The position numbers were made by a program, and so were the translations under genes. The notes beneath the pieces are model-generated. The model saw nothing but the letters and a program-made list of their open reading frames with translations. It searched no databases and was not told where the DNA came from. Of a DNA stretch of 64,000 bases, positions 3,001 to 62,082 are shown one piece after another. Origin of the DNA: a virus; IMG/VR virus record IMGVR_UViG_3300003690_000002, positions 62,001 to 126,000 of that record. The stretch is one strand, 5' to 3'. Every line of letters starts with the position of its first letter. Within the stretch, counting starts at the first letter, position 1.

Positions 3001-5159
3001 GATACAAAACTTTCATCTGGAACTTGCCCCTGGCTCGCCAAGCTCTCCAGCCCTTTGTGCCCTGGTAGGGTCACTGGATACTCCTCCGAACTCTGGTGTG
3101 TACCATCTGGCCAATTTACTGTCATTGCTGCCGCATAAGATCCGCGACCCTTGGATATATCTAACTCTGCAAATACGCCTTTTGGCAGACCCTTCATCAT
3201 AAATCCAGATTCTTGAACCTCTTTTATTTTTACTTTCCAATCGATTGGCATATCGCCAGAGGTGATCATTCCATCATTATCTATTGCTTTTACTCTAGAC
3301 ATAGCAGCTTTGATTGCTTCATTATATGAAGCCTTAGCTTCGATTTCTGCTGCGATCTCTTCTGGGGTATTACTTAAATCTACTTCAACTGTGATACAAT
3401 ATCTATTAATTCTAGAATCATAAAAAGGTTGGCATGAATCTAAATTAATCCAATTTGGAGTTGTTGTTTTTTTCACAGTGGCAGTTGGCTTAGCAAGAGG
3501 AAGCCTGGGTTTGGATGATCGTCCTAATATAGCTTGTCCAAGCGGTTTTGTTTGGCTAACTTTAACATAAAGATTGGGCATCGCGATTGGATCATCGTCA
3601 TGAGATACTGTTACTCCAAATTTTTTTGTTGCAATAGATTTCATAAAAAGTTTATCATTATAAATTCTATGAAAATTAAGTTCTGGACCCACATAAAGAC
3701 TTCCAATAGATAAAGGCATCCCTGCTGGAATTGTTCCAATTTTATTGCCTTGCGTATCTACCGGGCTTGCATATATATCAACCCTCCCTGGTTCGAAAAA
3801 ATCGGGGATCGTTGTTTTAAAGTCTTTTTTAATTTTCTTCTTTTGTGTGTCAATGATACCCTTTTTGGTTTTGATTTTCGTTTTTAACGCTTTTATTTGG
3901 TTTGTCCATTGAACGTCTAAATTTGGACAATATGTACCCCCCCAACCTTTTAATTTGCTCTTTGCGCCTACTTGGACGTCGTCTGGACCCGCTCCAATGG
4001 AGCTTGCAAAAGTATCCTTTAATATCAACCCTGCTTCTTTAGCAGCTGCTGGGCTTTCAAAGCCCATTCCTGGCACCAGTGGGTGAGACAAGTGGATATT
4101 ATCTGGGAATCCTGCTGAAAGTATTTTTTGACTATCAACGTTTTGCCAAAAAGAATAAGCAAACATCTTTCCGTTTGGATACTTTTTTATAAAATTAATA
4201 TATTTTTTCTCGCCTTTTGTTAATAACTTCCACACCATAAGGGCTGTAACTGTTTTTCCGCCAGGGGTATCTGGTAGTGGCTGAAATCCGAGCGTTTTAT
4301 ATATAAGACTTATATATAAATTTATTCCATCCATCCGCACCTCGTTTTCAGTCGCGGCGTCCGCAGCGGTGGGCTCACCTTCTGAGCCTTCTTCGGGGTC
4401 GAGGGCATAGATTGCGGCGGACCCATCCCAAATTGTCTTGGGTGAGCGAATTAAATTAAGATGTGCAAAAACTTTGTCGTTATCGTACTCAATAATTTGA
4501 TAAACTTTCCCTTTTACCTTCGGATTGCCTTTCTGTGCTTTTGATATCCATTTACCTGTAGGTGAAAAGCTATCTAATTGATTTTTTAAAAGACTTACTG
4601 ATTCCAACTCGGCTATAAGTGTAAATAGCTCCTCGTAAGTATCATAAATTGTATCTAAATTGTTCGCTATTATTGCATTTACTACTGATGGAGCTGTCGC
4701 ATAATGTGTCGCCGTTTCTGGAAGTTCTATAATGCTTTTTATCTTCGTGCCAATATCTTCTTTATATAGGGTATAAACACCATGTACAACCGGGCTGTTA
4801 AAAGCGCCTTTTGCGCCATCAGCCCACATAAAATATTCTTTAAACGTTTCCAATGTTTTGTCACCAGCTGGTGTGGATCTTATATCCTCAAGCATGTGAT
4901 CGGCAGACGACGGCTGGTATTCCAAATCGATAGGCGTCTCAGGGGCGAGATCCGTCGCTATAGCCCAGTCGTTGGTGAGCGGCTGACCGGGCGTGGTGCC
5001 ATTTCTTGCTATCCAGCTGCTCTGTCCCTTGTTTTTCTTTCCTCCGGCGCCAATTGAATATACTATTTCATCTTTTACACCATTCAACCCCTTTGGACAA
5101 ACAACTACATATAGTATAGGCTTTTTATTCTCACGAATAAATTTATGTGACATTCCCAT
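1..5159 (-). CDS. Very large virion/baseplate-region protein (3' end outside window)
   Basis: An uninterrupted minus-strand frame runs from the ATG at 5159 (M-G-M-S-H-K-F-I-R) to the window edge, at least 1,719 codons with no stop, so the C-terminus is missing. I recognise no catalytic domain. The N-terminal half has beta-rich stretches and one SH3-like piece (T-I-P-A-G-M-P-L-S-I-G, near residue 475); the C-terminal part is helical and Lys/Glu/Ala-rich with probable coiled coil (about residues 1400-1650). It lies 15 bp downstream of two baseplate genes and shares their higher GC and many Pro/Gly/Ala codons, so a structural role in tail or baseplate is inferred from context. Whether it is a tail fibre base, wedge or hub component cannot be told. 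That it is one real gene is nearly certain; the function is open. Confidence 0.85.
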   Translation of the reverse strand, partial: MGMSHKFIRENKKPILYVVVCPKGLNGVKDEIVYSIGAGGKKNKGQSSWIARNGTTPGQPLTNDWAIATDLAPETPIDLEYQPSSADHMLEDIRSTPAGDKTLETFKEYFMWADGAKGAFNSPVVHGVYTLYKEDIGTKIKSIIELPETATHYATAPSVVNAIIANNLDTIYDTYEELFTLIAELESVSLLKNQLDSFSPTGKWISKAQKGNPKVKGKVYQIIEYDNDKVFAHLNLIRSPKTIWDGSAAIYALDPEEGSEGEPTAADAATENEVRMDGINLYISLIYKTLGFQPLPDTPGGKTVTALMVWKLLTKGEKKYINFIKKYPNGKMFAYSFWQNVDSQKILSAGFPDNIHLSHPLVPGMGFESPAAAKEAGLILKDTFASSIGAGPDDVQVGAKSKLKGWGGTYCPNLDVQWTNQIKALKTKIKTKKGIIDTQKKKIKKDFKTTIPDFFEPGRVDIYASPVDTQGNKIGTIPAGMPLSIGSLYVGPELNFHRIYNDKLFMKSIATKKFGVTVSHDDDPIAMPNLYVKVSQTKPLGQAILGRSSKPRLPLAKPTATVKKTTTPNWINLDSCQPFYDSRINRYCITVEVDLSNTPEEIAAEIEAKASYNEAIKAAMSRVKAIDNDGMITSGDMPIDWKVKIKEVQESGFMMKGLPKGVFAELDISKGRGSYAAAMTVNWPDGTHQSSEEYPVTLPGHKGLESLASQGQVPDESFVSPATDEPGGFDLTPSLTLELESLPGAGIAGAMIGQLDNAVTKTYPDFESATAFKKWRSATLKLQELVGSGELAKIQLSGLTQLLQYHFKKLPPDVSIPGQPGRVALPEPILTAATAAGGIEGVKTMDGVVSLAIDSLSDAQTAMWLLDAGDRIVDPISADDIIYDERPDYNAVPTITTTTPDAGAQADVKLKTRTIVRAVVKVPAVYFDALSPKDPSLLMEVAQKNASRTTVINSKTFRKEIAIVVEILEKYSEDINQAAVAGPHHEIVPAIDLKKEAERLNSWVANLEVFLKQNGFALREDFEDKIEIGFYDIEGVTLTTFTPDPDDPNDETGYEDPITLAGHPFNISYILFHNDPKAVATGHKLPSVWGDEEDSETQTAIRAVDDGDNTLGPAPESETKVVKKAMVLGAPQLIQMTYGDPDSPESPAWSGTFCGIGLSCIHLNFGDSPTTNALAFYTYWMTHGLFTRKPLSEVPWTEFVRRYIRTVPPVTIRWMATPRPSAPRAPEKISKEERNAQTERLERMMNNKPYKTATQKKTEEELLNENVKKWITLSQKPVAELVFDDLAKDFERDVQGVPELDHLYKNLLNRTDITMLASQLASCLSLDMTLEELLVIACKFVLDKIGFEEFVEAFKKAGYSDYLFREPDGILHQMMNNSEGLADAINQVHTNKKNHESKRQAINLQRLDAKAATLESYIAANEAYLEYEQLQTLLKEMKASLSLPLLATAPDAMSEYELDQWSYTVAPQLQELKNLELDLENQRLIVKGLEAEERSNRAKEKKLKQNLKDHNLNTPLYANLNPGSDNLEYANQRFLDALKFLDDLAKKGLCQKMSIIFPKVGKLIAPYLNRKGLKNVEEAAEGAIKGEPTSEKKEEEKAKDAQEGAKNADEAMSNKASELPQIKTRIPETINMEDLNKWFYKKLEKFLIDLLTDLILDGIKWVLEELLAACQWLRDKLAGLFDEEEYVEQENLMDLINQASDYNNDNYNLAAAANILAKF

Positions 5160-5173
5160 TTTTTATATTCCTA

Positions 5174-6712
5174 TCAATTCGTATTGTTAAATCGGCTACA
5201 AATAAAATCTGCTCCGACTTGCTTTGTAAAATTGATTTTCCAAGCTATTAAATTTTTTCTATTTGTCGCAAGTGCAGTTTTTGTGCCCGATGCGGCTTTT
5301 ATTAATGCCAATGAGCCACCCTTCGCACAGTCCGTCGATGGAGTGGTGGGCTGAGCAAACCAAGGAGAAAAGTGCCAATGTGTTGCTACGGAGCTATTAA
5401 ACTTCATTTGATATAATACATGAGAGTCTAGTATTCCATTCAGTCCTTCTATATATTCAACTAATTTCTCAAATGCTCTGACGAGAGCTTCTCCTTTTAC
5501 TAATGGTTCTAGATCAGTATCATCATTTCCAGCGATTAAATCAATTCCAGCAACGCTTAACTTTCTTCCGCCTTGTGAATTTTTTGCATCTGTGCCAGTA
5601 ACAAGTTTTATTCCTTCGCGTGCAACTAATCTAATCCCATCGGCTTTTAAGCCAATTGCTGAACGAGGTATCGGATTACCCACACTACCAGCAACCAGCC
5701 CAAAATGTTCATCAATTTTAGTTTTTTGACTCATATAAATCCTTGCAGAGTCAATTTTAAAGTTTGGATCCGCATATATTTTTTCACCGCCTAAATTAAC
5801 AGATCTAGGTCTAGCCCCCATCATTCCAACACAAAGATCTATACATCCAGCCTGGGTGTGTCCTAGTCCGCCATAGCCGCTCATTCTACTGGCTGGTCTA
5901 TCTCTCCCCAAAATTATCCAGGCGTTGTGATCGTTTTTAATAACATTTTCTGATGGGGTATCGATACGATATGGAACTGGCTCGTTAAGCTTATCTCCAG
6001 CAATACCTTTATCTACGCCTTTTAATTCTTGCGGCGTATTTTCTTCCATTGCTAAAACAGATGCAGGTAAGCCATCTTTTAAAACAGCTTTTTTTGAGTT
6101 AAACGTTCTTGGATCGTAATTTGGTGGCATATCTATTGTTGGTATGTCGAAAGCTACAGGGTCTTCCCCTTTCATTGTCTGGCTTGCGCTTTTTAATTGC
6201 TTTTTAATTTCTTTTATAGAGTCAATAGCATCATCGTGAAATTGCGCTTTGTCAGGAAAAACGTCTTCTACTGCACTTCCAGGTACTATAACGTTCGGAT
6301 TAACTGTGGATTTAACTTTTGATAGTTCTTCTTCGGTTTTAGGAGTAATTGCTATAACTGCCGCTGCGGATGGTGTTTTTAGGGCAGCCTCCTTTTCTTC
6401 TAGTATTAATTTTTGATTCTTTATATCTTGTTCTAAAGCTTCCATCTCTTTTTTTACTGCTTCGTCTGGAACCAGGGTTCCGCCACTTCCAGGTGTGCCC
6501 AATAAAGCACCTTGAATTTTATAATTTGGATACATACTTTTATAGTTGGGTAAGATGACGGTTTCTGCTATTTTCTGAACAGAGGCTTTTTCACCAGTAA
6601 GACCCCATGCTTGTACTATAAGAGAAGTTGCTACTTCAACTACTCGTATGTCGGCGCGAGATATAGAACCAATATCAAAATTGCTAATTATTATAAGATA
6701 GTCTGCTGCCAT
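5174..6712 (-). CDS. Putative baseplate/tail spike-like structural protein
   Basis: 512 residues. The N-terminal part (1-250) is helical and includes a Lys/Glu-rich coiled coil (about 85-115). The centre (about 260-400) has short repeating beta motifs such as I-G-L-K-A-D-G-I-R-L-V-A-R-E-G-I-K-L-V-T, the alternating I-x-L pattern seen in the C-terminal beta-helix of gp5/VgrG-type puncturing devices. A His/Trp-rich stretch (T-H-W-H-F-S-P) follows near residue 445. It lies between the lysozyme-bearing hub protein upstream and the giant protein downstream, with 26 and 14 bp gaps, so one late operon is likely. I infer a needle or spike-associated baseplate component. No enzyme motif is visible. 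Confidence 0.7.
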   Translation of the reverse strand: MAADYLIIISNFDIGSISRADIRVVEVATSLIVQAWGLTGEKASVQKIAETVILPNYKSMYPNYKIQGALLGTPGSGGTLVPDEAVKKEMEALEQDIKNQKLILEEKEAALKTPSAAAVIAITPKTEEELSKVKSTVNPNVIVPGSAVEDVFPDKAQFHDDAIDSIKEIKKQLKSASQTMKGEDPVAFDIPTIDMPPNYDPRTFNSKKAVLKDGLPASVLAMEENTPQELKGVDKGIAGDKLNEPVPYRIDTPSENVIKNDHNAWIILGRDRPASRMSGYGGLGHTQAGCIDLCVGMMGARPRSVNLGGEKIYADPNFKIDSARIYMSQKTKIDEHFGLVAGSVGNPIPRSAIGLKADGIRLVAREGIKLVTGTDAKNSQGGRKLSVAGIDLIAGNDDTDLEPLVKGEALVRAFEKLVEYIEGLNGILDSHVLYQMKFNSSVATHWHFSPWFAQPTTPSTDCAKGGSLALIKAASGTKTALATNRKNLIAWKINFTKQVGADFICSRFNNTN

Positions 6713-38959: not shown

Positions 38960-38984
38960 TATTTTCTCCGCATTATATTTTAAG

Positions 38985-39366
38985 TGGAGGCGCTGGGAGT
39001 CGAACCCAGGTCCAAAAGACTGCAAAAACACGATCATTCACAAAAATAGACGCATTCACCACCGAAGCGTCAACCACCTGATATTCCTATCAGGGAATCC
39101 ATTTACCAACTTAAAGGTGTTGACTACCGGAATATATAGTCATAAAAATGGCTAAATACCTACTACGCCCACCACCAATTTTTCTAAAAATTGGAAACGG
39201 CTAATATTTCTTTAGAAAGCTATTAACAACTTCCGATTATGCCGCCATGGCATAATCAAATTCAACGTTATCGTTGGCATTTATAAAAGTCAAGTATTTT
39301 TACTGTGTTACTTACACAGTTTTGCACGTTGTTTTATTCGTATTTTGTCGAAACCGTTTCGCCCCC
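38985..39366 (-). ncRNA. ssrA: tmRNA (one-piece, phage-encoded)
   Basis: The RNA starts GGGGGCGAAACGGTTTCGAC at 39366, the standard tmRNA 5' end with its D-loop-like part. The 3' end holds a T-arm with G-G-T-T-C-G-A-C and the sequence CGCCTCC-A, which pairs over 7 bp with the 5' GGGGGCG (one G-U); CCA is not encoded. The tag reading frame at 39278-39237 reads A-N-D-N-V-E-F-D-Y-A-M-A-A then TAA, matching the ANDxN...YAxAA pattern. Host tmRNA rescues stalled ribosomes and marks proteins for ClpXP. The order is standard, not permuted, so the host or donor is unlikely to be an alphaproteobacterium or cyanobacterium. Confidence 0.95.
39237..39278 (-). other. tmRNA tag-peptide reading frame
   Basis: Resume codon GCC at 39278-39276, then N-D-N-V-E-F-D-Y-A-M-A-A and a TAA at 39239-39237. 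The end A-M-A-A in place of the more common A-L-A-A still has the terminal Ala-Ala read by ClpX. Confidence 0.9.
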
Positions 39367-40688: not shown

Positions 40689-43600
40689 TTATCCTTTTAT
40701 ATTTATACCTGATATTTGTAGTAAATAGTCTAAGACTTCTTTAACTGGCTCGTTTTTATTAGCTTCTTTTAACTTAAGTTTTGATTTCCTTCTTTCTCTT
40801 TCATTTTCTTTATCAAAATCGATGCCTGGCCATGGACTTTTAGTATAAGCGCCTTCTACATTCCCACCACCCATAGTAGAAATTTCTTCTATTTCTTCTT
40901 TCCCTGTTTCTTCTTCTGTTTCTTTTTCCATTCTTTTTGCTGCTTCTGCCGATGCTATATCTGTTGCCCGCTCAACTTCGCGGGCAGTTTGTTCAGATTC
41001 TTTTTCTGTTTTTTCTGTCTTTTTTGCTTGTAGATCAAATTCGGTGCTTAATTGTTTAAACGTTTCTATATATTCTTCTTGTTTTTTAAACAAACTTTCA
41101 ATTGATTTATATACGTCTTCTAGAAATTTTTGATCTTGCATTAGTTCTTTAGTTTTTTCTTTTGCAAAATTACTTTTTTCTTTAAAGTCCATTGTTTTTA
41201 CATTAGAATTGTCTTTTTTAGCATCTCTAAAAAAATTTGCATCTTGTTCTTTTAAGGAATTATAAAAATATTTGGACCAACTTTCAAATAATAGTTGATC
41301 TTTTTTGTTTTCATTCATCGTTGGTATGTGATGTTGTCTAGAAACATCTCGACCAGTTATTTTACCTATATATTTTTTTCTGAACGCGGCTGATGGGTTG
41401 GTCTCTACTCCTTTAATATTTTTTGAATAATCATTCGGCACAACATGTACAGAGCCATCTGGCATTGTTACTTTGAGATCATCTTTTATATTAATTTTTT
41501 TAGCCACTAATTCTACCCAAGAATCCCATAGTTTTCGCGAAATATCTTCGGCGCCAGTTTCTTTTGCAATTTGCCTTAGAAACTCTACGTATTTTTGAGC
41601 TAATTCAATACCACCAGAAGTAAGTTTGATTATATTACTGTCGAATTCTCCAGCCTGGATAACTTTTTTACCAGATGCAGTAACTGAAGGTGTCCTAAAT
41701 CCTTTATCGCCGGGAGTCAGTATATTAAATTCTTTTGAGATTCCTTTATATATGTTTAGATTAATCGAATCAATACAACCCAATCGACCAATGATTAATT
41801 GGGTTGCAAATGCCGCTTTCGGTAAACCAAGTCCAGGTAATTTAATTGCTTCCAAATAAATATTAAATAATGCTTCTTCTTTTCTTAATCCACTAGAATT
41901 ATTATATTCATTGAACAAACCACTAAAACTAGAATATATGCTTTCCCTGTTTTTCCATAGATAATCAATTGCATGTTTGCGAGGACCCATAACCAATTGA
42001 CCAAACCCTGAAAAATCATATTTAGGTTGTTTTTCGCCTGGGTTTAATAAATTTCTGTCAGTCATTAAACCATCGTTTTTATGAACAAAATTTAATAATA
42101 TCGGGAACTTTGGCACCACATCATACCATCTCATTTGCTGAGTGCCAATTACAAACATCAAAACATCAGCTAGTTGGTCTGGAGAATACTGTGCATATTC
42201 ATTTATAAGAGGGTTATATTTGCAAAAACCAGAATCAAATTCTTTTGATAAATCTAATATAGCATCTTCAGAAGCCTCGTCTTCTTCTTGTTCTTTTAAG
42301 GTTCTCACCTCATCGTTTTTAATATTTTTCTCCAGCTGCTCTTCTACTAGCCGCAGAAATATACCCACTGGAAGTGAGCCGCCCTCCTTTATCATGTCCT
42401 GATCTTTTAATTTAATGTTGAGTATTCCGAGCACACTATCCGGATTGGAACCCGCAGGCATAAAATCTTCAAAAAGTTGTAGCGCAATAGGGCTCTCTGT
42501 AGCTAATTCAGCCATATAGCGCATATCAGAACCATGAAATTCTAATATATCTAGACCTTCCTTGAAGCTGGGTAAATTATCTAATATTTCTGTATTTTCT
42601 CTTAATATTGTAATGTAATTATCACTGTGGGTGATAACATCTGCTTGAGCGGCATACGTAATAGGATCTAATATGTTTACATCTGGTGTATATTTTTGTA
42701 TATTTTTTCCAAACCTTTGGGCGGCATCACCTCCTTTTGTGCTAGCGCCTAATATAATATTGGATCCTGCCACTTCTGGCTTATTTCCATATTCAATTGC
42801 TGCCTGGACCGGGGAGTTATATTCAGATACTTCCACATCCGCACTTAACCCAGAATTATTTAAATACAAGTTCCATATTTTCTTAGATTGTGCTGCTGTT
42901 ATGGGGATTCCCTCTTTTGGAGTTTTCCTTTCTAGCGGAGAAATTAAAATAATAATTTTATCTGCCAAGTCTATATAATGTTTTGCCATGGCTAAATGAC
43001 CAACATGAGGTGGTTTAAATGCTCCCGGAATTATTGCTAGTGTTTGGTGTGTTTCTTCTTCTGTTATTTCTGTTATCTCTTCCTCATTTTTATTACTAGA
43101 TTTTATTGGTGGTATTTTTCCTCTTCCATATTTAAAAAGACCCAATAGTTGATTTATTGGCGCAAAATTGCCAGTAAATTTGTACATTTGTTCGCCATAT
43201 TGAAAAACAAACCCTTCAACTGTTGTATTAATGTTATCTAAATGTTTAATTTTTTGAAGCTGTTTTGCTAAAATTTCATGAGCTTTGCTCGCACCGGGTC
43301 CGGCATATGTTTGTATATTTTTGATAGCTGTAGAAATTTCTTTCTTTTGCCTTGCAAGCTCTGCTTCATTATTTAAAATATAAGCACTTTTTAAACCTTT
43401 TAAAAGTTCAACAGAAAAAGTATGAATCGCTTCTTCAATCGGCCATATAGCATCATTAATCAGTGAAATTTCTGCAAATTCTACAAATTGCTTAATTCTT
43501 TGTTTTATGTCAATAGGAAAACCTTTATATATTTGAGTAAGAGATTTTGCTCCATCTTTTTTTAATATTCTATTAAGCACATCTTGTTGGATATCAGGGC

Positions 43601-44333
43601 TTAAAAAATTTAACTTTCTTTCTACCTCTCCGCGCAAATAGTTTTCCATATATTCTTCAATCGTCATATTTTTAGAAAAACCAGCTTTTTGTATTTTTTG
43701 TAAAGCAATATTTAGATCATAATCATTATCAAGTTGATTGAGTTTTAAAAATGCGGTACGGCGTACTGAAAATGGTATATCACTAGTTGCTTCTTCAAAT
43801 CTGTCAATTAAATCATCTAATAAATTTGAACCTTTTGATGCATCGACCGTTTCTAATGTATTTTTCTCTTCGTTATAAAATTTATGACCAACGTGGTGAA
43901 TGTTAATAACGTCTTCATCATAATTAATTATATTCTTAGCTGATGGACCTTGTATTTCAGCATTATAGAAGACTTCTTTATTTTCTCCAAAAATAATGTC
44001 TAATTCGCCTTGCGATAAACTATCTAATGTTCTCTCATAGGCTTTAAAAGCGTTTAAATATACTTTTTTAATTTCATCGCCGCCCTTAAACTTTCTTGCC
44101 GCTAAATCAGCGAATGTGCGACCACCTATTTTCATATCGCCTTTGTTTCTTGCCCAAGCGGGAGCCCATACAGCTTTATTACCTTTAATTCCCAAATAGA
44201 TATTAAAGCCATCAGTTTTTTCTGTGCCTTGAAGTTCTCCTCTTGAGGCAGCTGAAAGGATTTTTTTAATTTTATTAAAAGTTAGGTCTCTATCATCATA
44301 GAGATGCATTAAATGCTTAGCGACACCGCCCAT
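40689..44333 (-). CDS. 1,214-residue multidomain protein: nucleotidyltransferase domains, HhH-like and fused tagged C-terminus
   Basis: N-terminal E-G-T-E-K-T-D-G-F-N-I-Y near residue 37 is the K-x-D-G motif of DNA/RNA ligase-type nucleotidyltransferases. Residue ~430 on carries A-I-I-P-G-A-F-K-P-P-H-V-G-H, the GxFxPxHxGH-like motif of cytidylyltransferase/NMN adenylyltransferase domains; A-S-T-K-G-G-D-A is nearby. Around 760-900 a helical domain includes K-L-P-G-L-G-L-P-K-A-A-F-A, a HhH-like DNA-binding turn. From residue 1006 (M-N-E-N-K-K-D) comes a C-terminal part starting L-L-F-E-S-W-S-K-Y-F and then L-K-E-Q, a copy of the N-terminal capsid-tag motif inside the protein. Ligase- and NadR-like pairs are common in T4-like phages for nucleotide or NAD metabolism. 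The C-terminal piece looks like a fused tagged gene. Confidence 0.8.
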   Translation of the reverse strand: MGGVAKHLMHLYDDRDLTFNKIKKILSAASRGELQGTEKTDGFNIYLGIKGNKAVWAPAWARNKGDMKIGGRTFADLAARKFKGGDEIKKVYLNAFKAYERTLDSLSQGELDIIFGENKEVFYNAEIQGPSAKNIINYDEDVINIHHVGHKFYNEEKNTLETVDASKGSNLLDDLIDRFEEATSDIPFSVRRTAFLKLNQLDNDYDLNIALQKIQKAGFSKNMTIEEYMENYLRGEVERKLNFLSPDIQQDVLNRILKKDGAKSLTQIYKGFPIDIKQRIKQFVEFAEISLINDAIWPIEEAIHTFSVELLKGLKSAYILNNEAELARQKKEISTAIKNIQTYAGPGASKAHEILAKQLQKIKHLDNINTTVEGFVFQYGEQMYKFTGNFAPINQLLGLFKYGRGKIPPIKSSNKNEEEITEITEEETHQTLAIIPGAFKPPHVGHLAMAKHYIDLADKIIILISPLERKTPKEGIPITAAQSKKIWNLYLNNSGLSADVEVSEYNSPVQAAIEYGNKPEVAGSNIILGASTKGGDAAQRFGKNIQKYTPDVNILDPITYAAQADVITHSDNYITILRENTEILDNLPSFKEGLDILEFHGSDMRYMAELATESPIALQLFEDFMPAGSNPDSVLGILNIKLKDQDMIKEGGSLPVGIFLRLVEEQLEKNIKNDEVRTLKEQEEDEASEDAILDLSKEFDSGFCKYNPLINEYAQYSPDQLADVLMFVIGTQQMRWYDVVPKFPILLNFVHKNDGLMTDRNLLNPGEKQPKYDFSGFGQLVMGPRKHAIDYLWKNRESIYSSFSGLFNEYNNSSGLRKEEALFNIYLEAIKLPGLGLPKAAFATQLIIGRLGCIDSINLNIYKGISKEFNILTPGDKGFRTPSVTASGKKVIQAGEFDSNIIKLTSGGIELAQKYVEFLRQIAKETGAEDISRKLWDSWVELVAKKINIKDDLKVTMPDGSVHVVPNDYSKNIKGVETNPSAAFRKKYIGKITGRDVSRQHHIPTMNENKKDQLLFESWSKYFYNSLKEQDANFFRDAKKDNSNVKTMDFKEKSNFAKEKTKELMQDQKFLEDVYKSIESLFKKQEEYIETFKQLSTEFDLQAKKTEKTEKESEQTAREVERATDIASAEAAKRMEKETEEETGKEEIEEISTMGGGNVEGAYTKSPWPGIDFDKENERERRKSKLKLKEANKNEPVKEVLDYLLQISGINIKG

Positions 44334-50087: not shown

Positions 50088-50429
50088 TTATGTTCTTTTT
50101 GGTATTGTAGTGAATTTTACGCCTAAAATTCTATCTCCCTCTTCATCTTTAATCTTTAATATTTTTGATCTTAAATAATCTCTATATGTGGCTATTGGTA
50201 TGTTTTTTGGCATGAATCTAACAGTTAAAACTGTTATTTTTTGAGTTGGACCGGTCTTTCTCGTCGCTGCCTCTGATTTGACAATTGTAACCCCATCAAT
50301 TGCCCTTATTTTGTTAAAAACGCTTGCATATAATGCCAAATCTTTAGAATATTTTATTAATATCTCTATTTCAAAGTGTTTTTCTTCCTCAAAGAGGTAT
50401 TTCTGCCAATTTTCAAATAATTTTTCCAA
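50088..50429 (-). CDS. Tagged protein with ferredoxin-like body
   Basis: 113 residues. TTG start at 50429, giving M-E-K-L-F-E-N-W-Q-K-Y-L-F-E-E; the L-F-E after residue 12 fits the proposed (L/I)-x-E tag cleavage. The body has two beta-alpha-beta-like units (I-E-I-L-I-K-Y and I-T-V-L-T-V-R-F), an ACT/ferredoxin-like pattern. Function unknown. Confidence 0.7.
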   Translation of the reverse strand: MEKLFENWQKYLFEEEKHFEIEILIKYSKDLALYASVFNKIRAIDGVTIVKSEAATRKTGPTQKITVLTVRFMPKNIPIATYRDYLRSKILKIKDEEGDRILGVKFTTIPKRT

Positions 50430-50715: not shown

Positions 50716-51411
50716 TTATGTTCCTTGAAATCCCGGAGGGGCTGTTTTTGAGCGCTCGTAAGAAGGTTTTTTAATATATGGAGGATTTTTTGACCTATTT
50801 CCACCCATGCCAATATTTTTTTTCTTTGATTTTTCGTGCCCTTTCTTAACTGAAGCTTGATAATCTTCATCTAATTCTTGCAAAGCTAAATGTATTGCTT
50901 TTTTTTGATCGGGGAGAAGACCTCTAAATCCGTCTATCTCATGAATATCTACCCATTCATATTCTAAATTCTCTTCTAAATCAAGATCTATTGCCCCGGA
51001 ATACCTGTCTGTTTTGAAATAAGCTACATTTTTATGTTTTTTAACAAGCTCTAATTGACTAATTTCCAAATTTGTTTCTTCTTTAACCTCTCTTTTGCCA
51101 CCTGTTGCTACATTTTCACCTTTTTTAACATGACCTCCGGGGAGATCCCAATCATGATTCTTGTCAGCACGCTTTAAAAGTAAAAATTGCTTCTTCTCAT
51201 TAAAAATAATAACTTTTGAGACCTCATTTGTATCACCACCCTCCTCTGGAAATCTAGTTTCAGAATCAGGCACAGAAGAAGCATCAGCATATTGCCAAGA
51301 CTCTTCTCCCGAGCCTCCATATTTTAATGGATCCCTATATTTCCAGTTTCCTGTGGACTCTGGCTGTTCTTTTATGTATTTTCGCCAACTCTCAATCAAT
51401 AATTTCATCAT
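50716..51411 (-). CDS. Tagged Nudix hydrolase
   Basis: 231 residues. Tag M-M-K-L-L-I-E-S-W-R-K-Y-I-K-E then Gln, with I-K-E as the site. The Nudix box G-H-V-K-K-G-E-N-V-A-T-G-G-K-R-E-V-K-E-E-T has the complete G-x5-E-x7-R-E-V-x-E-E-x-G-like pattern, with metal-binding Glu residues; a Tyr/Gly-rich end follows. Nudix enzymes hydrolyse nucleoside diphosphate derivatives, including NAD, caps and (p)ppGpp. With a tag it may act on host metabolites right after infection. Confidence 0.82.
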   Translation of the reverse strand: MMKLLIESWRKYIKEQPESTGNWKYRDPLKYGGSGEESWQYADASSVPDSETRFPEEGGDTNEVSKVIIFNEKKQFLLLKRADKNHDWDLPGGHVKKGENVATGGKREVKEETNLEISQLELVKKHKNVAYFKTDRYSGAIDLDLEENLEYEWVDIHEIDGFRGLLPDQKKAIHLALQELDEDYQASVKKGHEKSKKKNIGMGGNRSKNPPYIKKPSYERSKTAPPGFQGT

Positions 51412-51843: not shown

Positions 51844-52431
51844 TTATATCCCCTCATATAAATCAACGTATTCTTCCCAATCTTCTTCCGGGTCAAACGG
51901 TTTAACATCCGGCTCTGTTATTTCAGGCTTTTCAGGTGTTTTTTCAATAATTTTATTAGAAAATTGTTGCAAAGTTGACATATTTTGCTTAAAAAACACG
52001 AAAAAGAAGGGATTTTCATCACCTTCGTACTTAAATTCCTCTTTTTTTTCTTTAAATACCCCAAATTTATTATTTTTTGGTATAAATTTTTTCCAAACTC
52101 GAACTGCATCTGGGCTAGTTTCGTAGCTATCTGGTGAAAGACCTTTTTCTCCTGCCAATTCTAGAGCCATTAAGTACATGATTGTACCCACCCTTTCGCT
52201 ATTCTTGGGAGAAGATGACCACGATACTTCCCAATTAGGTACATCTATGCGTTTTTCAATAGAAATATAGGCATTTGTACCACTTTTTTTACTTGCTACT
52301 GGTTCTTTTGTGCTTATATCAAGTATATTTATGGTTATATCTTTTGAAGATTTTGTGATGTGATAAAAAAAATCATATGGGCTCTTATTCATATTTCTAT
52401 ATTCTCGCCAATTTTCAAGTAGGAGTTTCAT
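51844..52431 (-). CDS. Tagged protein with acetyltransferase-like domain
   Basis: 195 residues. Tag M-K-L-L-L-E-N-W-R-E-Y followed by R-N-M-N-K, so the (L/I)-x-E site is not obvious here. The centre (V-G-T-I-M-Y-L-M-A-L-E-L-A and S-P-D-A-V-R-V-W) resembles the GNAT-like domain found in many marine phage proteins (P-L-x-Y-x-x-A-x-E-x-A). Acidic Pro/Glu-rich tail. The catalytic features of an acetyltransferase are not certain. Confidence 0.65.
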   Translation of the reverse strand: MKLLLENWREYRNMNKSPYDFFYHITKSSKDITINILDISTKEPVASKKSGTNAYISIEKRIDVPNWEVSWSSSPKNSERVGTIMYLMALELAGEKGLSPDSYETSPDAVRVWKKFIPKNNKFGVFKEKKEEFKYEGDENPFFFVFFKQNMSTLQQFSNKIIEKTPEKPEITEPDVKPFDPEEDWEEYVDLYEGI

Positions 52432-52637
52432 TTATTTTCTCTCTTAATAGTATGTTTATTCCACTTTTGTAATTTTTTAATTAAATTCTCAAGGTTCCAT
52501 TTTCTTGGAACACAACACATTGGGAAAATAGCATGCAATAAAAAAACAATACCTCTAAATATTAAAACTAAACCAACTTTGCTAGCAAAAATTAAATGGC
52601 TCAAATAAGTTTCATTATTTTTCTTAAAATGATTCAT
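52428..52637 (-). CDS. DUF6356-like small membrane protein
   Basis: 69 residues. E-T-Y-L-S-H-L then a hydrophobic V-G-L-V-L-I-F-R-G-I-V-F-L-L and H-A-I-F-P-M fits the DUF6356 pattern (Y-L-x-H, then L-x-H-A-x-F-P). A basic Lys/Arg end follows. Overlaps its neighbours by 4 bp on each side. Function unknown. Confidence 0.65.
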   Translation of the reverse strand: MNHFKKNNETYLSHLIFASKVGLVLIFRGIVFLLHAIFPMCCVPRKWNLENLIKKLQKWNKHTIKRENK

Positions 52638-53266
52638 ACTTTAACTAGTTCTTTTTTTTCAAGGTCTAGTTTGTATCCAATTATTTCAGGATCAACTTCA
52701 CCTACGTTAAAAAAATCAAAACCAGGCAATATTGCTATTTTTTGTTCTGGAAAGGATCCTCTTTTTATAAAATAGCTAGCTTGACCTATAACTTCTGTAA
52801 ACAATGCTCCTGCGGCTTTAGGAGGGACCGTTTTCATATGTCCATTATATGCTGCTATTTCTCCTTGTAATGTAAAATCTGCACCTCTTTGACAGTGTGT
52901 CATGTAATCGTGTACTGCTCGTGTTTTTAAATTAAACTCGGGCTCAAATATAGGATGCTCCGTCCCGCCAGTCCAAATTTTTAAAACGCCATTTTGTGCG
53001 GCATCAGCGCACATTTCTTTCTCAGATGGGTAAGGATCTTCTTCTACAAACTGAACATCTACTCTAGATTGGATTCTTTGAAACATTTTATTGACAAATG
53101 GCTCTAGAGCTTCAAAAGAAGAAACTGCAGTGGGGTCAAACTCCGGAGCATTTTCATACGCTTGTGTAACTAATTCTCCATAAAGATCCCAACCATTTGG
53201 ACCAGGCTTAAGCATTAATTTTTCTGTTAATATAAATTCTCGCCAATTTTCAAGTAAAAGTTTCAT
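52634..53266 (-). CDS. Tagged protein with VHDYMTH-type phage domain
   Basis: 210 residues; start at 53266 on the shared tag repeat rather than the 10 residues longer frame. Tag M-K-L-L-L-E-N-W-R-E-F-I-L-T-E then Lys. The domain has R-A-V-H-D-Y-M-T-H-C, G-E-I-A-A-Y, and G-A-L-F-T-E-V-I-G-Q, a pattern I know from other marine phages without a function. The paired His may bind a metal. Confidence 0.7.
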   Translation of the reverse strand: MKLLLENWREFILTEKLMLKPGPNGWDLYGELVTQAYENAPEFDPTAVSSFEALEPFVNKMFQRIQSRVDVQFVEEDPYPSEKEMCADAAQNGVLKIWTGGTEHPIFEPEFNLKTRAVHDYMTHCQRGADFTLQGEIAAYNGHMKTVPPKAAGALFTEVIGQASYFIKRGSFPEQKIAILPGFDFFNVGEVDPEIIGYKLDLEKKELVKV

Positions 53267-53802
53267 GCCTGTACCCCCATAGGTGCACCGCCCCACAAAT
53301 ATCGAAATTTAAGAGAGGGTTTGTACGGATCGCCGTCGTCAATATAAACGCTGATATTCGTCACCGGGATCTCCTCGCCCTTTTTAAAAGCCACCTCCGA
53401 TTCATCATAAAACATTTTAGGTTCTTCACCAGCTGCCTGCGGATCGTAACCAAAATCTTCTGCAACCATTGCTGAGAGAATGACATGGAGTGTTTTCCCG
53501 CGATTTTTAGCGCCCCACGGGCTTGCAAAACTCACGGCAACCCTTCGGTCAAGAGTCCAAGAAATTCCAATGCCTCGATCAACCGCCTGGGCAAGTAGAA
53601 TCCGTGCGGCTTCTGGTGCGCTTAAGCCTGCGGGTTTGTCCCGAGCAATCTTTCTAATTTGAGATGCCAAAGTTGCAGAAGGCATATCCAATGCCATGCC
53701 TCTATATATTTTTCGCATTTTCTTGGGGCGGGATGGCTCTGATTGTTCTAGCAAGTACTCTCGCCAATTTTCAAGTAGGAGTTTGATTGCTAATCCTCCC
53801 AT
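53263..53802 (-). CDS. Tagged ADP-ribosyltransferase-like protein
   Basis: The tag is x-K-L-L-L-E-N-W-R-E-Y-L-L-E then Gln. The aligned start codon is ATC at 53787, preceded by GGAGG at about 7 bp; ATG at 53802 is 15 bp upstream in frame, so initiation is uncertain. The body resembles an ADP-ribosyltransferase: K-I-Y-R-G-M (Arg of the R-S-E motif), I-S-W-T and V-S-F-A (second motif), and Y-D-E-S-E-V-A-F (E-x-E motif). It is more GC-rich than the AT-rich genes around it. T4 Alt, an injected capsid ADP-ribosyltransferase with an N-terminal capsid tag, is the clear parallel. The final catalytic Glu and arginine are assigned from motif order only. Confidence 0.7.
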   Translation of the reverse strand: MGGLAIKLLLENWREYLLEQSEPSRPKKMRKIYRGMALDMPSATLASQIRKIARDKPAGLSAPEAARILLAQAVDRGIGISWTLDRRVAVSFASPWGAKNRGKTLHVILSAMVAEDFGYDPQAAGEEPKMFYDESEVAFKKGEEIPVTNISVYIDDGDPYKPSLKFRYLWGGAPMGVQA

Positions 53803-54200
53803 TGTGCTGGTTCTCTATGGCGCGTTAAATCAGTTACTACATTCTTGATGCGATTATGATAATCCTTTAAAGATTGTTCACCATATCGATATGGATCGAT
53901 ATAATCTTGTAATGCCACCTCTTTTGTTTTATATTTAAAATCATCAGAATTGCCGCTGTAAATATACATTGTTTTTAAAATACTATTAATTTCATTTTTA
54001 TCTTCTGTGGTTTTAAGTTTATCAAAAAAATCTAATAGTGTATTTGTCTGGTGAATGTTTTTGGATGGGTTCTTAATGATATCTAACTTTGTGATTTGTG
54101 AAAAAGTTTTTCCAATATCCCATGGTTCATCTTTAGGAGGAGGAAAAGAATCAATTCGTTCGTTTAAATATCGCCGCCAATTTTCAAGTAGGAGTTTCAT
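53790..54200 (-). CDS. Tagged protein of unknown function
   Basis: 136 residues. Tag M-K-L-L-L-E-N-W-R-R-Y-L-N-E then Arg, with L-N-E as the likely site. Helical, mixed charge; two conserved-looking Y-x-x-Y-x-E pieces (D-Y-I-D-P-Y-R-Y-G-E). No known domain. Confidence 0.7.
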   Translation of the reverse strand: MKLLLENWRRYLNERIDSFPPPKDEPWDIGKTFSQITKLDIIKNPSKNIHQTNTLLDFFDKLKTTEDKNEINSILKTMYIYSGNSDDFKYKTKEVALQDYIDPYRYGEQSLKDYHNRIKNVVTDLTRHREPAQWED

Positions 54201-54238: not shown

Positions 54239-54559
54239 TTAGACCGCGAAGGAAGAACCACAGCCGCAGGTGCGGGTCGCGTTGGGGTTCTCGAAATGGA
54301 AGCCGGAGAACTTAAAGGACTCGATGTAGTCGATGGTCGTGCCATCCAGATATTGGTGGCTCATGGGATCGACGTACACCTTCAAGCCATCACGCTCAAT
54401 GACTGAATCGCCCGCATTCTCTTGGTTTTCCAGATCCATATCGTAGGTGAACCCGGAGCATCCACCGCCGACGACCATCAGCCGAAGACCATAGCCTTCC
54501 AACCCTTGCTGATTGGCTAATTCTTGTACTTTTTTAATTGCTTTTACTGTAATGTTCAT
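54239..54559 (-). CDS. HesB/IscA/ErpA-type iron-sulfur cluster protein
   Basis: 106 residues. A-I-K-K-V-Q-E-L, G-L-R-L-M-V-V-G-G-G-C-S-G-F-T-Y, and the C-terminal T-C-G-C-G-S-S-F give three conserved Cys in the C-x(~64)-C-G-C pattern, the A-type carrier signature. GC content here is strikingly higher than in the genes on either side. It carries or assembles Fe-S clusters; no tag. Recent acquisition from a bacterial host is likely. Confidence 0.93.
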   Translation of the reverse strand: MNITVKAIKKVQELANQQGLEGYGLRLMVVGGGCSGFTYDMDLENQENAGDSVIERDGLKVYVDPMSHQYLDGTTIDYIESFKFSGFHFENPNATRTCGCGSSFAV

Positions 54560-54592: not shown

Positions 54593-55039
54593 TTACTGTG
54601 GGACTTCTTCTACTATGCCCTTTATATTAATCCCGCTCAAAGGTTCAAAACTTTCTTCTGGTATTTTATTGGAATGGAAAGGTTTTCCACCTCCTTCGCG
54701 ATTTACAGCAACCGTGACGTGAGGAAAAGATATCTTTTTACTAATCTCACCAGGAGCTTGGACCTTTACTGCCATAGCACGTTCATCTCGCCCCACGGCA
54801 ATAACTGATAATGTGATTTCAGATCCCAAAGGGTAATCTTTTGAAAAATCATGTTTGCCTTTGGGGTGAACTAGCGAAGCAAAAGGAGCAATTGTCATAT
54901 GATGTACAACCGGCTCCCAGCCTTCAGGGATATCTAATTCTAGAAGCTTATTACGCGATTCTTCATCTAATACTACACCGGAATAAGCAATTGCTTCGGT
55001 TAATGTATACTGTCGCCAATTTTCAAATAAAAGTTTCAC
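54593..55039 (-). CDS. Tagged 2H phosphoesterase-like protein
   Basis: 148 residues. GTG start at 55039 on the tag repeat; M-K-L-L-F-E-N-W-R-Q-Y-T-L-T-E then Ala, with L-T-E at residues 13-15. H-M-T-I at residues 47-50 and H-V-T-V at 107-110 are the two H-x-T-x motifs, 60 residues apart, of the 2H superfamily. G-V-V-L and P-E-G-W-E-P precede as in the RNA-repair-like group. Known 2H enzymes cut 2',3'-cyclic or 2',5'/cyclic oligonucleotide bonds; T4 Acb1 is a 2H enzyme that degrades CBASS signals. Function here is by analogy. Confidence 0.72.
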   Translation of the reverse strand: MKLLFENWRQYTLTEAIAYSGVVLDEESRNKLLELDIPEGWEPVVHHMTIAPFASLVHPKGKHDFSKDYPLGSEITLSVIAVGRDERAMAVKVQAPGEISKKISFPHVTVAVNREGGGKPFHSNKIPEESFEPLSGINIKGIVEEVPQ

Positions 55040-55965
55040 TATTGTCTCCTCGTTTTTTTATAAACATCGTATACTTCTTTACTCGATTCTGTGCCTTTTT
55101 TAGCTAGGGATTTACCATAATCCAAGGTTTGCTGCAAATTACCTTCCCACTTAATAGTTACTTCACGGTACCAAGCTTCTGTACGAGCGCCAATATCAAT
55201 CCACCGGTCAAGTAATTCTACTCTGTCTCTTTCCGGAAGATCTTTCGCAAAATCTTCACCTCGGACCACATCTTTAAGCCCATCATATAAGACATTTAAA
55301 CCTTTATCGATCCCTTCCTTAGAGTTCATAAAATCATGTTTACCTTTTGCTTGGTGTAAATCGTCAATGCTGGCTAATAGTTTATATAAATGAGTGGGAG
55401 TTTTACCCTTCTCTTGACGTATATCAATAATGTCGACCAATTGTCCTTTCATTCCATCGACAATATTATCAGATACAGGCTTACCGCCGTAAGTAAGCTT
55501 CGCTTGGGCTTCGTTCTCAAATAGTACAGCAAAAGCAATATAAAAAGCAACTACAGTTAGCGTCATAGTCGCGACTTTACATACTGTGGGGTGGCTGCCG
55601 CAAAATCCTTGTACCTTCCTAATTAACCATCCTATTGATTTTAATGCTGCCATACCTGCCCTTCTAGCCAAGTCGACAAGCTGTACGGATTTTTCTAAAA
55701 TCCAATCATTTATCTTTTCCCACCCTTTCTGCAACAAGCCTGAACGTTCAGATGGAGGCTTATAATCAGGATCTGCTGTTAATTCGGCTTCTTTTTCCCA
55801 ATCTATTCCTATTTCTTCATTTAGAGAATTAAGTTCGAATAGTACAATATCTTGCCATCTTTCAATTAATTGATTATCAGAAATCAATCGTTTATCATGT
55901 TGTTCGCATATTAATTGAAATGGATTATCATTATATTTTCGCCAGTTTTCAAGTATGAGTTTCAT
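55039..55965 (-). CDS. Tagged protein with a central membrane span
   Basis: 308 residues. Tag M-K-L-I-L-E-N-W-R-K-Y then N-D-N-P, without the usual (L/I)-x-E at that place. One membrane span (A-T-M-T-L-T-V-V-A-F-Y-I-A-F-A-V-L, about residue 140) sits between Trp/Lys-rich helices (N-side) and charged helices (C-side). A packaged protein with a membrane helix would fit an ejection-channel or membrane-acting role; this is inference. Confidence 0.65.
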   Translation of the reverse strand: MKLILENWRKYNDNPFQLICEQHDKRLISDNQLIERWQDIVLFELNSLNEEIGIDWEKEAELTADPDYKPPSERSGLLQKGWEKINDWILEKSVQLVDLARRAGMAALKSIGWLIRKVQGFCGSHPTVCKVATMTLTVVAFYIAFAVLFENEAQAKLTYGGKPVSDNIVDGMKGQLVDIIDIRQEKGKTPTHLYKLLASIDDLHQAKGKHDFMNSKEGIDKGLNVLYDGLKDVVRGEDFAKDLPERDRVELLDRWIDIGARTEAWYREVTIKWEGNLQQTLDYGKSLAKKGTESSKEVYDVYKKTRRQ

Positions 55966-55980
55966 TTAATCCTCCTTAAG

Positions 55981-56748
55981 TCAAAGTGCTTCATTTATAT
56001 ATTCTTGTGGTTCAAGTTCAATCTTCGCGTGGGGATATCTGCTCATTAAATAATATCTCCATAATTCTCTAATTCTTCTTACTAGTGGGGTCAATTCTTC
56101 TTCTGCATATCCATAATTTAATCCAGTGTAATAAATTTCATTAATTATGTTATCAAGAAGCTCTCCAATTGGTTGTTTTTCTGTTTTTGCTCTTTTATAA
56201 ACTCCTGCGACGTGTCCTTTTACTTCAGATTCGCTTGTATAATAATCTTTAGCGGTTTGTAAAGTTTTCCATATTTCTTTGTCAGGAATCTTTTCGTAAA
56301 CTTTTTTAAGCATTTCAGTTGGCTGTCCGCTATGTTCTAACTCGTGGCGTAACGTTTCTTTGAGTTTTGGAATTAATTCTGAAAAATCTTTATTGGTATA
56401 AAGTTGTGGGAACTCAATATTAACATATACATCTGATAATTGTCGATCCTCTTCTGGTGCGTCTAAAATCCAATCATAGCTTCCATGTACAATAATACTG
56501 TGATCGTCTTCTAAATCAGATATTTTAACATTAACAATTATATCTCTAACCCATTTCAAATCTTCTAGCAGATCTGCTACTAGTGTAAATGTGGCTTCTC
56601 CGTTACTTTCAATATATGATCTTAGATCTTCATCTTTGAGCGCTTTAATAATTTCTCTTGAAAAATCAGTTGCATAACGATCTAAGCGTCGACCAGTAGT
56701 CCCAGCTTCATTTATAAATGTACGCCAATTTTCAAGTAGGAGTTTCAT
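55981..56748 (-). CDS. Tagged HExxH metallopeptidase-like protein
   Basis: 255 residues. Tag M-K-L-L-L-E-N-W-R-T-F-I-N-E then Ala, with I-N-E the proposed site. L-R-H-E-L-E-H-S-G-Q near residue 137 is an HExxH helix; S-E-S-E-V-K-G-H-V-A follows about 33 residues later, a plausible third-ligand helix. Mixed-charge helical body. A packaged or injected protease is possible. Confidence 0.72.
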   Translation of the reverse strand: MKLLLENWRTFINEAGTTGRRLDRYATDFSREIIKALKDEDLRSYIESNGEATFTLVADLLEDLKWVRDIIVNVKISDLEDDHSIIVHGSYDWILDAPEEDRQLSDVYVNIEFPQLYTNKDFSELIPKLKETLRHELEHSGQPTEMLKKVYEKIPDKEIWKTLQTAKDYYTSESEVKGHVAGVYKRAKTEKQPIGELLDNIINEIYYTGLNYGYAEEELTPLVRRIRELWRYYLMSRYPHAKIELEPQEYINEAL

Positions 56749-56972
56749 TTCTTTAGTAACTCCTCAATATCATTCATTATTTGTTCAAGTTTTTCAATCT
56801 TTTCTACGGGGATTGACGCCATATTATAGTGTATGTCTGCTAATTTTTGTCCTAGCGCATCTTCAAGTTGAATAACATATTGTAAATTATCTTCACTGAT
56901 TTTTGGGCGATGAGGAAATTGTATAACTTCACCTTCAAGAAGTTTTCGCCAATGTTCCAGTAAAAGTTTCAT
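56745..56972 (-). CDS. Tagged small protein
   Basis: 75 residues. Tag M-K-L-L-L-E-H-W-R-K-L-L-E then G-E; helical acidic remainder with I-P-V-E-K-I-E-K-L-E. Overlaps the metallopeptidase gene by 4 bp. No domain. Confidence 0.65.
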   Translation of the reverse strand: MKLLLEHWRKLLEGEVIQFPHRPKISEDNLQYVIQLEDALGQKLADIHYNMASIPVEKIEKLEQIMNDIEELLKK

Positions 56973-56982
56973 TTAGTATTCC

Positions 56983-57765
56983 TTATACTATGTTATTTCC
57001 ATTAATTGACATCATTTTATCATAAGATAATATTCTTAAGCTCGATAATTTTTGAAGATAATCGTTTCTTCTTAGGACTTTGAATGCTAAGTTTTCAACT
57101 GAGAATGCTCCTCTCGTCTCTAACCCACACTGTCTAAATTTCCTTATTTTTTCCCTAAGCTGTTCTGAAGCGTTTAATGCTAACTTGTACTCTTTGTTAG
57201 AAAACATCTCATAGACTTCATCTATATCTTCCATTAATCTTGCAGCTTTTTTCTTAACATTTATATAATCAATCTTTGGGTTTTCTTTTGAGGGCTCTGT
57301 TACCCATCCATTATCAATTATTGAATATACTCCTGTTGAGTGATGTGGTTCACCTGAGTTTTGTACGTATAGTTCTACTTCAAATCCTTTTATTTTTATA
57401 TTGTGATTTTTATTCCATATACTTGAGCTTTTTCTTAAAAAATCTCCAACTAATTCAAAATTTTCATCAACTTCTTTATAATCAATTATAATATGTAAAT
57501 CTATATCTGAATATTTAGACCAAGTATAGTTTGCTAAAGACCCCGTAATTGTAATATCTAAAATTTTAACCCAATGCAGCCCAAGGCTTTCAAAAAAATC
57601 ATTTGCTACTTTATAAAGTTTATTTTTTATTTTTGATTTTAATTTGCCTCTTTCCCACACATCTGAATTAAGCTCATCTTGTATCTCAAAGCTTGAAACG
57701 TCAACGGATTCTGGATTGACTAATTCTTCAAGGTAAATCTCCCAATTTTCAAAGAGTTTTCGCAT
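56983..57765 (-). CDS. Tagged nucleotidyltransferase-fold protein
   Basis: 260 residues. Variant tag M-R-K-L-F-E-N-W-E-I-Y-L-E-E. The body has I-T-G-S-L-A-N-Y-T-W-S-K-Y-S-D-I-D-L-H-I, the Gly-Ser ... D-x-D of the polymerase-beta nucleotidyltransferase fold (G-S-x-x-N-x-x-x-x-S-D-I-D-L). About 100 residues of helical C-terminus. This fold adds nucleotides to proteins, tRNAs or antibiotics; the target is unknown. Confidence 0.75.
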   Translation of the reverse strand: MRKLFENWEIYLEELVNPESVDVSSFEIQDELNSDVWERGKLKSKIKNKLYKVANDFFESLGLHWVKILDITITGSLANYTWSKYSDIDLHIIIDYKEVDENFELVGDFLRKSSSIWNKNHNIKIKGFEVELYVQNSGEPHHSTGVYSIIDNGWVTEPSKENPKIDYINVKKKAARLMEDIDEVYEMFSNKEYKLALNASEQLREKIRKFRQCGLETRGAFSVENLAFKVLRRNDYLQKLSSLRILSYDKMMSINGNNIV

Positions 57766-58393
57766 ATTTTAATTCCTCTAGCTCTTCAATTGTTTTATTA
57801 ACAGATGTATGTAATATTGCAATTCCGCCGACCTTTTCCCATGGAACTGTGTTTATTGTGAAGTCATCAATTAGCACATTAGGTTTTTCATCTGCAATTG
57901 CCCATTTATATTTTTCGTGCGACATAAATATTTTTTTTGGTTCTGGGTGAAGATTGTTTTTAATCCAAATTTCTTTTCCTCTTTTTGATCCTTCACCTTT
58001 CATCGGTGCTGTTAAAATATAAGGATCGAATTTGCTTATATAAGACCATAATTCTTTTCCGCCTTCAGCCCAGGGGAGATTTGCCCAAAAATCTTCATTA
58101 TCTTCAAGTCGTTTATACATATATTTTCTTGCAGCCTGTAATCTATTCTCTTTATCCATTTTATCTAAATCTTGCGGAGTAACTGAATCGCGTCCAAGTT
58201 TAGAAAGTACGTGCCTTAATTTCTCCATTTTTTTGTCAGTAATGTTTTTATCTTTTAAATCTAAATTTATTTGTTCAAGTGCGCCAGTTTCAAAATCTAC
58301 CAACACTCCATCCATGTCGCAATAAATTTGATATGGAAAACTTTCATTTCCTTCTTGTAAATAATTTTGCCAATTTTTTAAATATTTTTCCAT
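57749..58393 (-). CDS. Tagged HAD-family 5'(3')-nucleotidase-like protein
   Basis: 214 residues. Variant tag M-E-K-Y-L-K-N-W-Q-N-Y-L-Q-E then Gly. HAD motif I Y-C-D-M-D-G-V-L-V-D-F, motif II P-Y-I-L-T-A-P (Thr), a Lys in S-H-E-K-Y-K-W and motif IV V-L-I-D-D-F. This is the 5'(3')-deoxyribonucleotidase type. Overlaps the nucleotidyltransferase gene by 17 bp. May dephosphorylate nucleotides; may be packaged. Confidence 0.75.
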   Translation of the reverse strand: MEKYLKNWQNYLQEGNESFPYQIYCDMDGVLVDFETGALEQINLDLKDKNITDKKMEKLRHVLSKLGRDSVTPQDLDKMDKENRLQAARKYMYKRLEDNEDFWANLPWAEGGKELWSYISKFDPYILTAPMKGEGSKRGKEIWIKNNLHPEPKKIFMSHEKYKWAIADEKPNVLIDDFTINTVPWEKVGGIAILHTSVNKTIEELEELKYAKTL

Positions 58394-61908: not shown

Positions 61909-62082
61909 TTAATTAGCCTCCGTACATGCATTGATAAAGAGTTGTGCATTAAAACGCGGGTTAGTTTTTGCTAGTTCATTAGCAAAGCTAACCACTATGT
62001 CTTGGACGACGCAACGATTCATTGGCGAAGTGCCATGAGCCTTGAGTACGTCTGCGATAAGTTGGAAGTCTTTCTTGGTCAT
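61909..62082 (-). CDS. Small helical protein
   Basis: 57 residues from M-T-K-K-D-F-Q-L-I at 62082 (AAGG-type site upstream). A-D-V-L-K-A-H-G, V-V-S-F-A-N-E-L-A-K-T-N-P-R-F is a short-protein pattern seen in other phages, function unknown. It is the first gene after the sigma70-like promoter at 62117-62145. Confidence 0.65.
   Translation of the reverse strand: MTKKDFQLIADVLKAHGTSPMNRCVVQDIVVSFANELAKTNPRFNAQLFINACTEAN

Follow-up and report, generated by a model that had tools for sequence, protein, structure and literature searches.

Enzymes with the 2H fold and an HxT/HxT tetrad include CNPase, fungal Trl1 and the lancelet PNK-CPDase, and they share both features with the small protein from a bacterial virus that we analyse here. 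The likeness to CNPase extends to a Tyr with which strand 1 begins, at about the place of Tyr168, and to a proline loop, leading into a helix, behind the second motif. However, the viral enzyme is smaller, has neither a kinase nor a ligase domain, shares about 15–18% identity with these proteins and carries an N-terminal leader of the capsid type. In E. coli, the CCA-adding enzyme has 2′,3′-cyclic phosphodiesterase activity in its HD domain; the phages considered below resemble it in coupling CCA addition with 2′,3′-cyclic phosphate opening, but rely on a 2H domain, fused or neighbouring, that is unrelated to the HD one. Where defence and competition systems use metal-independent RNases, these leave 2′,3′-cyclic phosphates, and some CdiA toxins do so in the tRNA acceptor stem (PMC9071432). 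Phage RNA repair has, as one accepted route, the opening of such ends to 2′-phosphates by 2H enzymes (PMC7824862, PMC9503650).

Phage T4 packages internal proteins by means of a comparable leader and injects them (PMC3012670; PMC12373910). The T4 internal proteins and Alt, like the genes described below, combine a short N-terminal leader and an L/I-x-E site with unrelated protein bodies, and both phage genomes encode a gp21-type protease and a gp23-type capsid protein. Nevertheless, the leader sequences differ, and the known T4 cargo comprises restriction inhibitors and an ADP-ribosyltransferase, with no RNA-end enzymes. T4 also encodes Acb1 (57B), a 2H-superfamily protein with HxT/HxT motifs and of a size similar to that of the enzyme studied here; the latter, however, falls into a different fold branch, has no Acb1 profile match and does not have the S-R found invariantly behind motif 1 of Acb1, whereas 57B has no such leader. 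In Acb1, Y12, W74, F107 and W147 stack on bases and E141 contacts adenine (PMC9117128). The 57B gene directly adjoins ipI, which encodes a packaged internal protein (L025 1192–2011).

Packaged 2H domains have already been predicted, from MuF/portal fusion, in polyvalent proteins (PMC5512222), and RNA-repair 2H domains have separately been predicted in phages, including jumbo phages (PMC7824862); some phage 2H domains are predicted to be packaged and injected, and others to serve in RNA repair. By contrast, the enzyme considered here carries a short leader, and its relatives are accompanied by a CCA-adding enzyme, Thg1 and RNA ligase, whereas no ligase association was seen for the earlier 2H domains.

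The 2H enzyme and its structural relatives

The window, a stretch of 64,000 nucleotides, covers positions 62001–126000 of a 186,398-base virus record (G000) from a large T4-type phage. Its minus strand encodes, at 54593..55039, a capsid-tagged 2H phosphoesterase of 148 aa, which starts with GTG behind a good ribosome-binding site, GAGGAG (55046..55051, minus strand); the start overlaps the stop of an upstream tagged gene by one base. The leader MKLLFENWRQYTLTE (54995..55039, minus), a putative capsid-targeting sequence common to 12 neighbouring genes, precedes the predicted mature enzyme (residues 16–148; 54593..54994, minus), which is supported by its pLDDT and its CNPase-like fold.

The initial annotation had reported two H-x-T-x motifs 60 residues apart behind an L-T-E leader. 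Both are there, H47-M-T49-I50 at 54890..54901 and H107-V-T109-V110 at 54710..54721 (minus), spaced by exactly 60 residues, and the leader stands ahead of them. Since two HxS/T motifs 40–110 residues apart arise in 6% of same-composition shuffles, the pair by itself is weak evidence for 2H membership. Across 29 homologues, H47, M48, T49, H107 and T109 are invariant, as are Y19, S123 and N124; the last two belong to a conserved loop and helix start, K119-P-F-H-S123-N124 (54668..54685, minus), in which K119 and P120 are almost invariant. The gene is under strong purifying selection (pN 0.18 versus pS 0.90, saturated, compared with L001). Residue invariance, the predicted 2H fold and this selection together confirm that the motifs are real. 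One profile scan of bacterial and archaeal genomes returned no cellular relatives of the enzyme, and no cellular donor is known. Elsewhere, the phage genome carries a tmRNA (ssrA) gene with the tag peptide ANDNVEFDYAMAA (window 38984–39366, minus) and, away from it, three tRNA genes.

An AlphaFold2 model built from 29 sequences reached a pLDDT of 91.9, with residues 21–148 at 92–98 per ten-residue block and the leader at low confidence. Among the VIA-align matches listed, which include CNPase, RNA kinase-CPD, Acb1, LigT and CPDase-type enzymes, the top solved structure is CNPase (4wdb; Z 12.5 over 130 residues, 2.5 Å), followed by the RNA kinase-CPD of a fungal tRNA ligase (6u05; Z 10.5) and goldfish RICH (Z 9.8); a Burkholderia phage phosphodiesterase (Z 7.3), Acb1 (Z 7.2) and CPDase and LigT-type enzymes (Z 6.4–6.9) rank lower. 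In Foldseek, the viral proteins that match best are long ones of CroV and marseillevirus, and one of these bears the name RNA ligase. The tRNA_lig_CPD family (PF08302) is matched by 28 of the 29 homologues (best 6.8e-9); the window protein alone scores 14.5 bits, below the Pfam cut-off of 23, and the L036 homologue exceeds it at 26.9 bits. PDB sequence searches, with the single sequence and with a profile, gave chance matches only. Membership in the 2H phosphoesterase superfamily, as proposed in the initial annotation, is supported by the predicted 2H fold (pLDDT 92) and the invariant tetrad, and the model favours placement in the CNPase/fungal tRNA-ligase CPD branch, apart from Acb1. In CNPase, Tyr168 binds the substrate ribose and a product loop lies between β5 and α7 (PMC4643303); as read from the aligned ranges, with no computed superposition, Y19 would lie near Tyr168, and S123-N124, following K119-P120, near the β5–α7 loop.

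These comparisons bear on the idea, put forward in the initial annotation, of an injected Acb1-like anti-CBASS enzyme that would cleave cyclic di- or trinucleotides early enough to keep the effector from firing. Packaged 2H domains have indeed been proposed to destroy defence nucleotides (PMC5512222, PMC9503650), Acb1 is among the structural matches, ranking eighth in the Foldseek search of BFVD, and the superfamily and the tetrad are common to both proteins, although this tetrad is superfamily-wide. However, none of the 29 homologues matches the Acb1 profile PF23474 at E ≤ 1, for which T4 57B, the positive control, is recovered at 2.7e-60; hhalign assigns the two families a profile–profile probability of 7%; and Acb1 lies clearly further from the model than CNPase, by about 5 Z units, and than the RNA kinase-CPD. 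The company of the gene in relatives consists of tRNA and RNA repair enzymes, and no Acb1 homologue was found in the phage's own genome by a search that did detect the T4 control. On the basis of profile and relative structural rank we reject Acb1 membership, and an anti-CBASS action of this kind appears quite improbable. Thus, the 2H identity and the leader of the earlier interpretation hold, whereas its Acb1/cyclic-oligonucleotide part is not supported; RNA repair, which it had named as the alternative, is favoured by the fold, the PF08302 matches and the gene company. Such repair may still act in counter-defence, against tRNA-cutting RNases and not by erasing CBASS signals.

A little less likely still is an injected RNase or 2′-5′ oligonucleotide phosphodiesterase of the Usb1 or AKAP7 kind, attacking host RNA or a 2′-5′ signal. 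This function was proposed for the 2H domains of polyvalent proteins, in which ligase association went unseen (PMC5512222), but here CNPase leads the solved structures, the rotavirus VP3- and torovirus-type 2H folds fall far below the tRNA-ligase-like matches in Foldseek, and members of the family are found close to RNA ligases or in fusion with a CCA-adding enzyme.

Leaders and the case for packaging

The consensus MKLL[LF]ENWR..Y...L-T-E is common to the 2H gene and 11 others at 50.0–58.4 kb, whose starts read M..LLLENWR.Y or a close variant and whose bodies are mostly unrelated to each other; two further such genes lie at G000:147.3–148.1 kb. A [LIVM]-x-E site occurs within residues 10–24 in 12 of 13 pattern-matched tagged genes and, in the window and related loci, within residues 10–17 in 70 of 89 tagged versus 35 of 185 untagged genes. 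In the 2H protein, the prohead-protease cut is predicted after L13-T-E15. A prohead protease of family S77 (1.6e-33) is encoded in the virus record, as is a gp23-like capsid protein; G009 and G010, longer relatives with the LENW-type leader, also have the protease.

The 11 other tagged genes at 50.0–58.4 kb are all on the minus strand. They include a Pol-beta-type nucleotidyltransferase (56983..57765), which is 43% identical to an L044 gene that neighbours both an RNA ligase and a 2H gene and whose fold assignment is middling (nucleotidyltransferases at Z 5–7 among coiled-coil matches), a HAD phosphatase (57749..58393) of a family that recurs near tagged 2H genes, and a NUDIX hydrolase (50716..51411; PF00293, 8.8e-18). 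The gene directly upstream of the 2H gene (55039..55965) and the following one (55981..56748) have tagged homologues in L065, and a phrog_3170-like gene (52634..53266) has them in L067 and L069. The leader is also found on a 75-aa gene (56745..56972) and on those at 53790..54200, 50088..50429 and 51844..52431, the last being the sole one without an L/I-x-E site. On inspection by eye, a further tagged protein (53263..53802) resembles ADP-ribosyltransferases (YRG, STS-like, ExE); a profile search gave no match, and a role like that of T4 Alt is possible. An untagged ErpA/IscA-type iron-sulphur carrier (54239–54559, minus) lies within the cluster and adjoins the 2H gene. Outside it, a 1214-aa protein (40689–44333, minus) with a weak cytidylyltransferase-like match contains a leader-like LLFESWSKYF inside its frame and is possibly fused or cleaved cargo.

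The LENW leader is very likely a capsid-targeting sequence. Because of the shared leader, the L/I-x-E sites, the S77 protease, the gp23-like capsid and the T4 precedent, packaging of the 2H enzyme is well supported, though as a deduction and not a measurement, and in this respect the earlier description of a pre-loaded enzyme appears sound. Alternatively, the leader might serve, for instance, in recruitment or expression, the same enzyme then acting only after being expressed in the infected cell. In its favour, other phages use a different recurrent leader, MSWxDILK; yet the gp23/S77-type head, the L/I-x-E sites at a fixed place, the occurrence of the leader on unrelated bodies and the existence of homologues without the LENW leader all speak against it, and we regard it as unlikely.

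Other leaders are joined to the same enzyme. In L005, L006 and L028–L036, the leader is recurrent and differs from the LENW type; in L028 and L031–L036, from another phage group, the 2H domain opens with MWFDLLK, MSWKTILK and similar sequences. Per locus, the MSW-type leader stands on as many as 13 genes of the plus strand and on none of the minus strand. The form M[STA]W.DILK was seen in L032 (150–7205), L033, L031, L034–L036 and L028, as well as on a HAD-like protein (L033 5106–5609), and this uncharacterised leader is possibly a packaging or sorting signal. The L045 2H protein starts with MKSFKKYIFEN. On the maximum-likelihood tree, the distribution of the LENW leader requires four changes, of which well-supported branches force only one. 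Judging from the sequences, unrelated leaders have been joined to the 2H enzyme at least twice, which, we argue, suggests that the place to which the enzyme is delivered matters. A third leader, M[KR]ITK..LK..IKEE, stands on many unrelated small genes (G000:16921–17532, L062, L063, L067, L071); in G000, these genes adjoin that of the prohead protease.

Gene company in relatives and a proposed function

In two relatives (L040 and L041), one protein combines a CCA-adding enzyme, recognized by PolyA_pol (1.3e-21 in L041) and PolyA_pol_RNAbd (both), with the 2H domain at its C-terminal end. The L041 fusion is a 1913-aa polyvalent-type protein (643–6381), in which kinase-like repeats and an ART-like part were recognized by eye only. 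Separate genes show the same association: in L065 the tagged 2H gene adjoins a tagged gene for a CCA-adding enzyme (NCBIfam CCA tRNA nucleotidyltransferase, 2.2e-50), and in L067 another tagged gene of this kind lies about 0.4 kb from the 2H gene. An RNA ligase (3.6e-34), Thg1 and the nucleotidyltransferase homologue are found within 6 kb of the 2H gene in L044, and a DRB0094-type RNA ligase and Thg1 within 4 kb in L038. In the set of 12 records, counting the window, whose 2H gene bears a LENW-type leader, the nucleotidyltransferase family is found again in 7 and the HAD and NUDIX families in 6 each; these genes are partly tagged, some having no recognizable leader. None of PF09414, PF09511 and PF01139 detected an RNA ligase in the phage's own genome, and no tagged relative has a convincing one; as most of these records may be fragments, this absence is weak evidence. 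In L028, L034 and records like them, proteins of 820–841 aa match 'RNA_ligase'; they resemble ATP-dependent DNA ligases instead of tRNA ligases, and we discarded them.

Computation shows the class of fold, the invariance of the catalytic residues, the common leader, the protease gene and the gene company in relatives; packaging, cleavage, injection, substrate and biological role are what we infer. We consider it reasonably probable that the protein is a capsid-delivered 2H enzyme of the CNPase/Trl1-CPD type that opens RNA 2′,3′-cyclic phosphate ends. Guided by the leader, it would reach the prohead core; trimming after L13-T-E15 by the S77 (gp21-like) protease would follow, and the mature enzyme of about 133 aa would enter the next cell along with the DNA. 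There, if it is CNPase-like, H47/T49 and H107/T109 would open the 2′,3′-cyclic phosphate to a 2′-phosphate, so that 3′ ends of RNA, most likely tRNA, severed by host RNases would be healed ahead of any new phage gene expression. As fold similarity is no proof of substrate, the activity on 2′,3′-cyclic phosphates is a prediction from the model. End-processing partners may be co-packaged, namely the nucleotidyltransferase, the HAD phosphatase, which is a candidate for removal of the 2′-phosphate, and, in relatives, the CCA-adding enzyme. An anticodon-loop cut ending in a 2′-phosphate would be a poor substrate for a host RtcB, which counts against the proposal. Since no RNA ligase was found in this phage and CCA-adding enzymes were found in tagged relatives, rebuilding of the 3′ end fits better than sealing of a nick.

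More tentatively, and with somewhat less than an even chance in our estimate, the CNPase-type 2H enzyme, the HAD phosphatase and the nucleotidyltransferase, along with the CCA-adding enzyme in relatives, may constitute a capsid-loaded kit for tRNA 3′-end repair that reverses a tRNA-cutting defence from the first minute, with unrelated leaders serving different phage groups.

What is new here is that a 2H enzyme of the CNPase/Trl1 type follows a short capsid-type leader, belongs to a tagged cassette and is associated with tRNA 3′-end enzymes in relatives. The cassette is a concrete one, open to expression and assay. So far, injected phage proteins of defined role have mostly been DNA protectors, restriction inhibitors and ADP-ribosyltransferases; if our reading is true and an enzyme that heals RNA ends travels inside the capsid, then some phages would be prepared for tRNA cleavage as a danger that awaits them on entering the cell.
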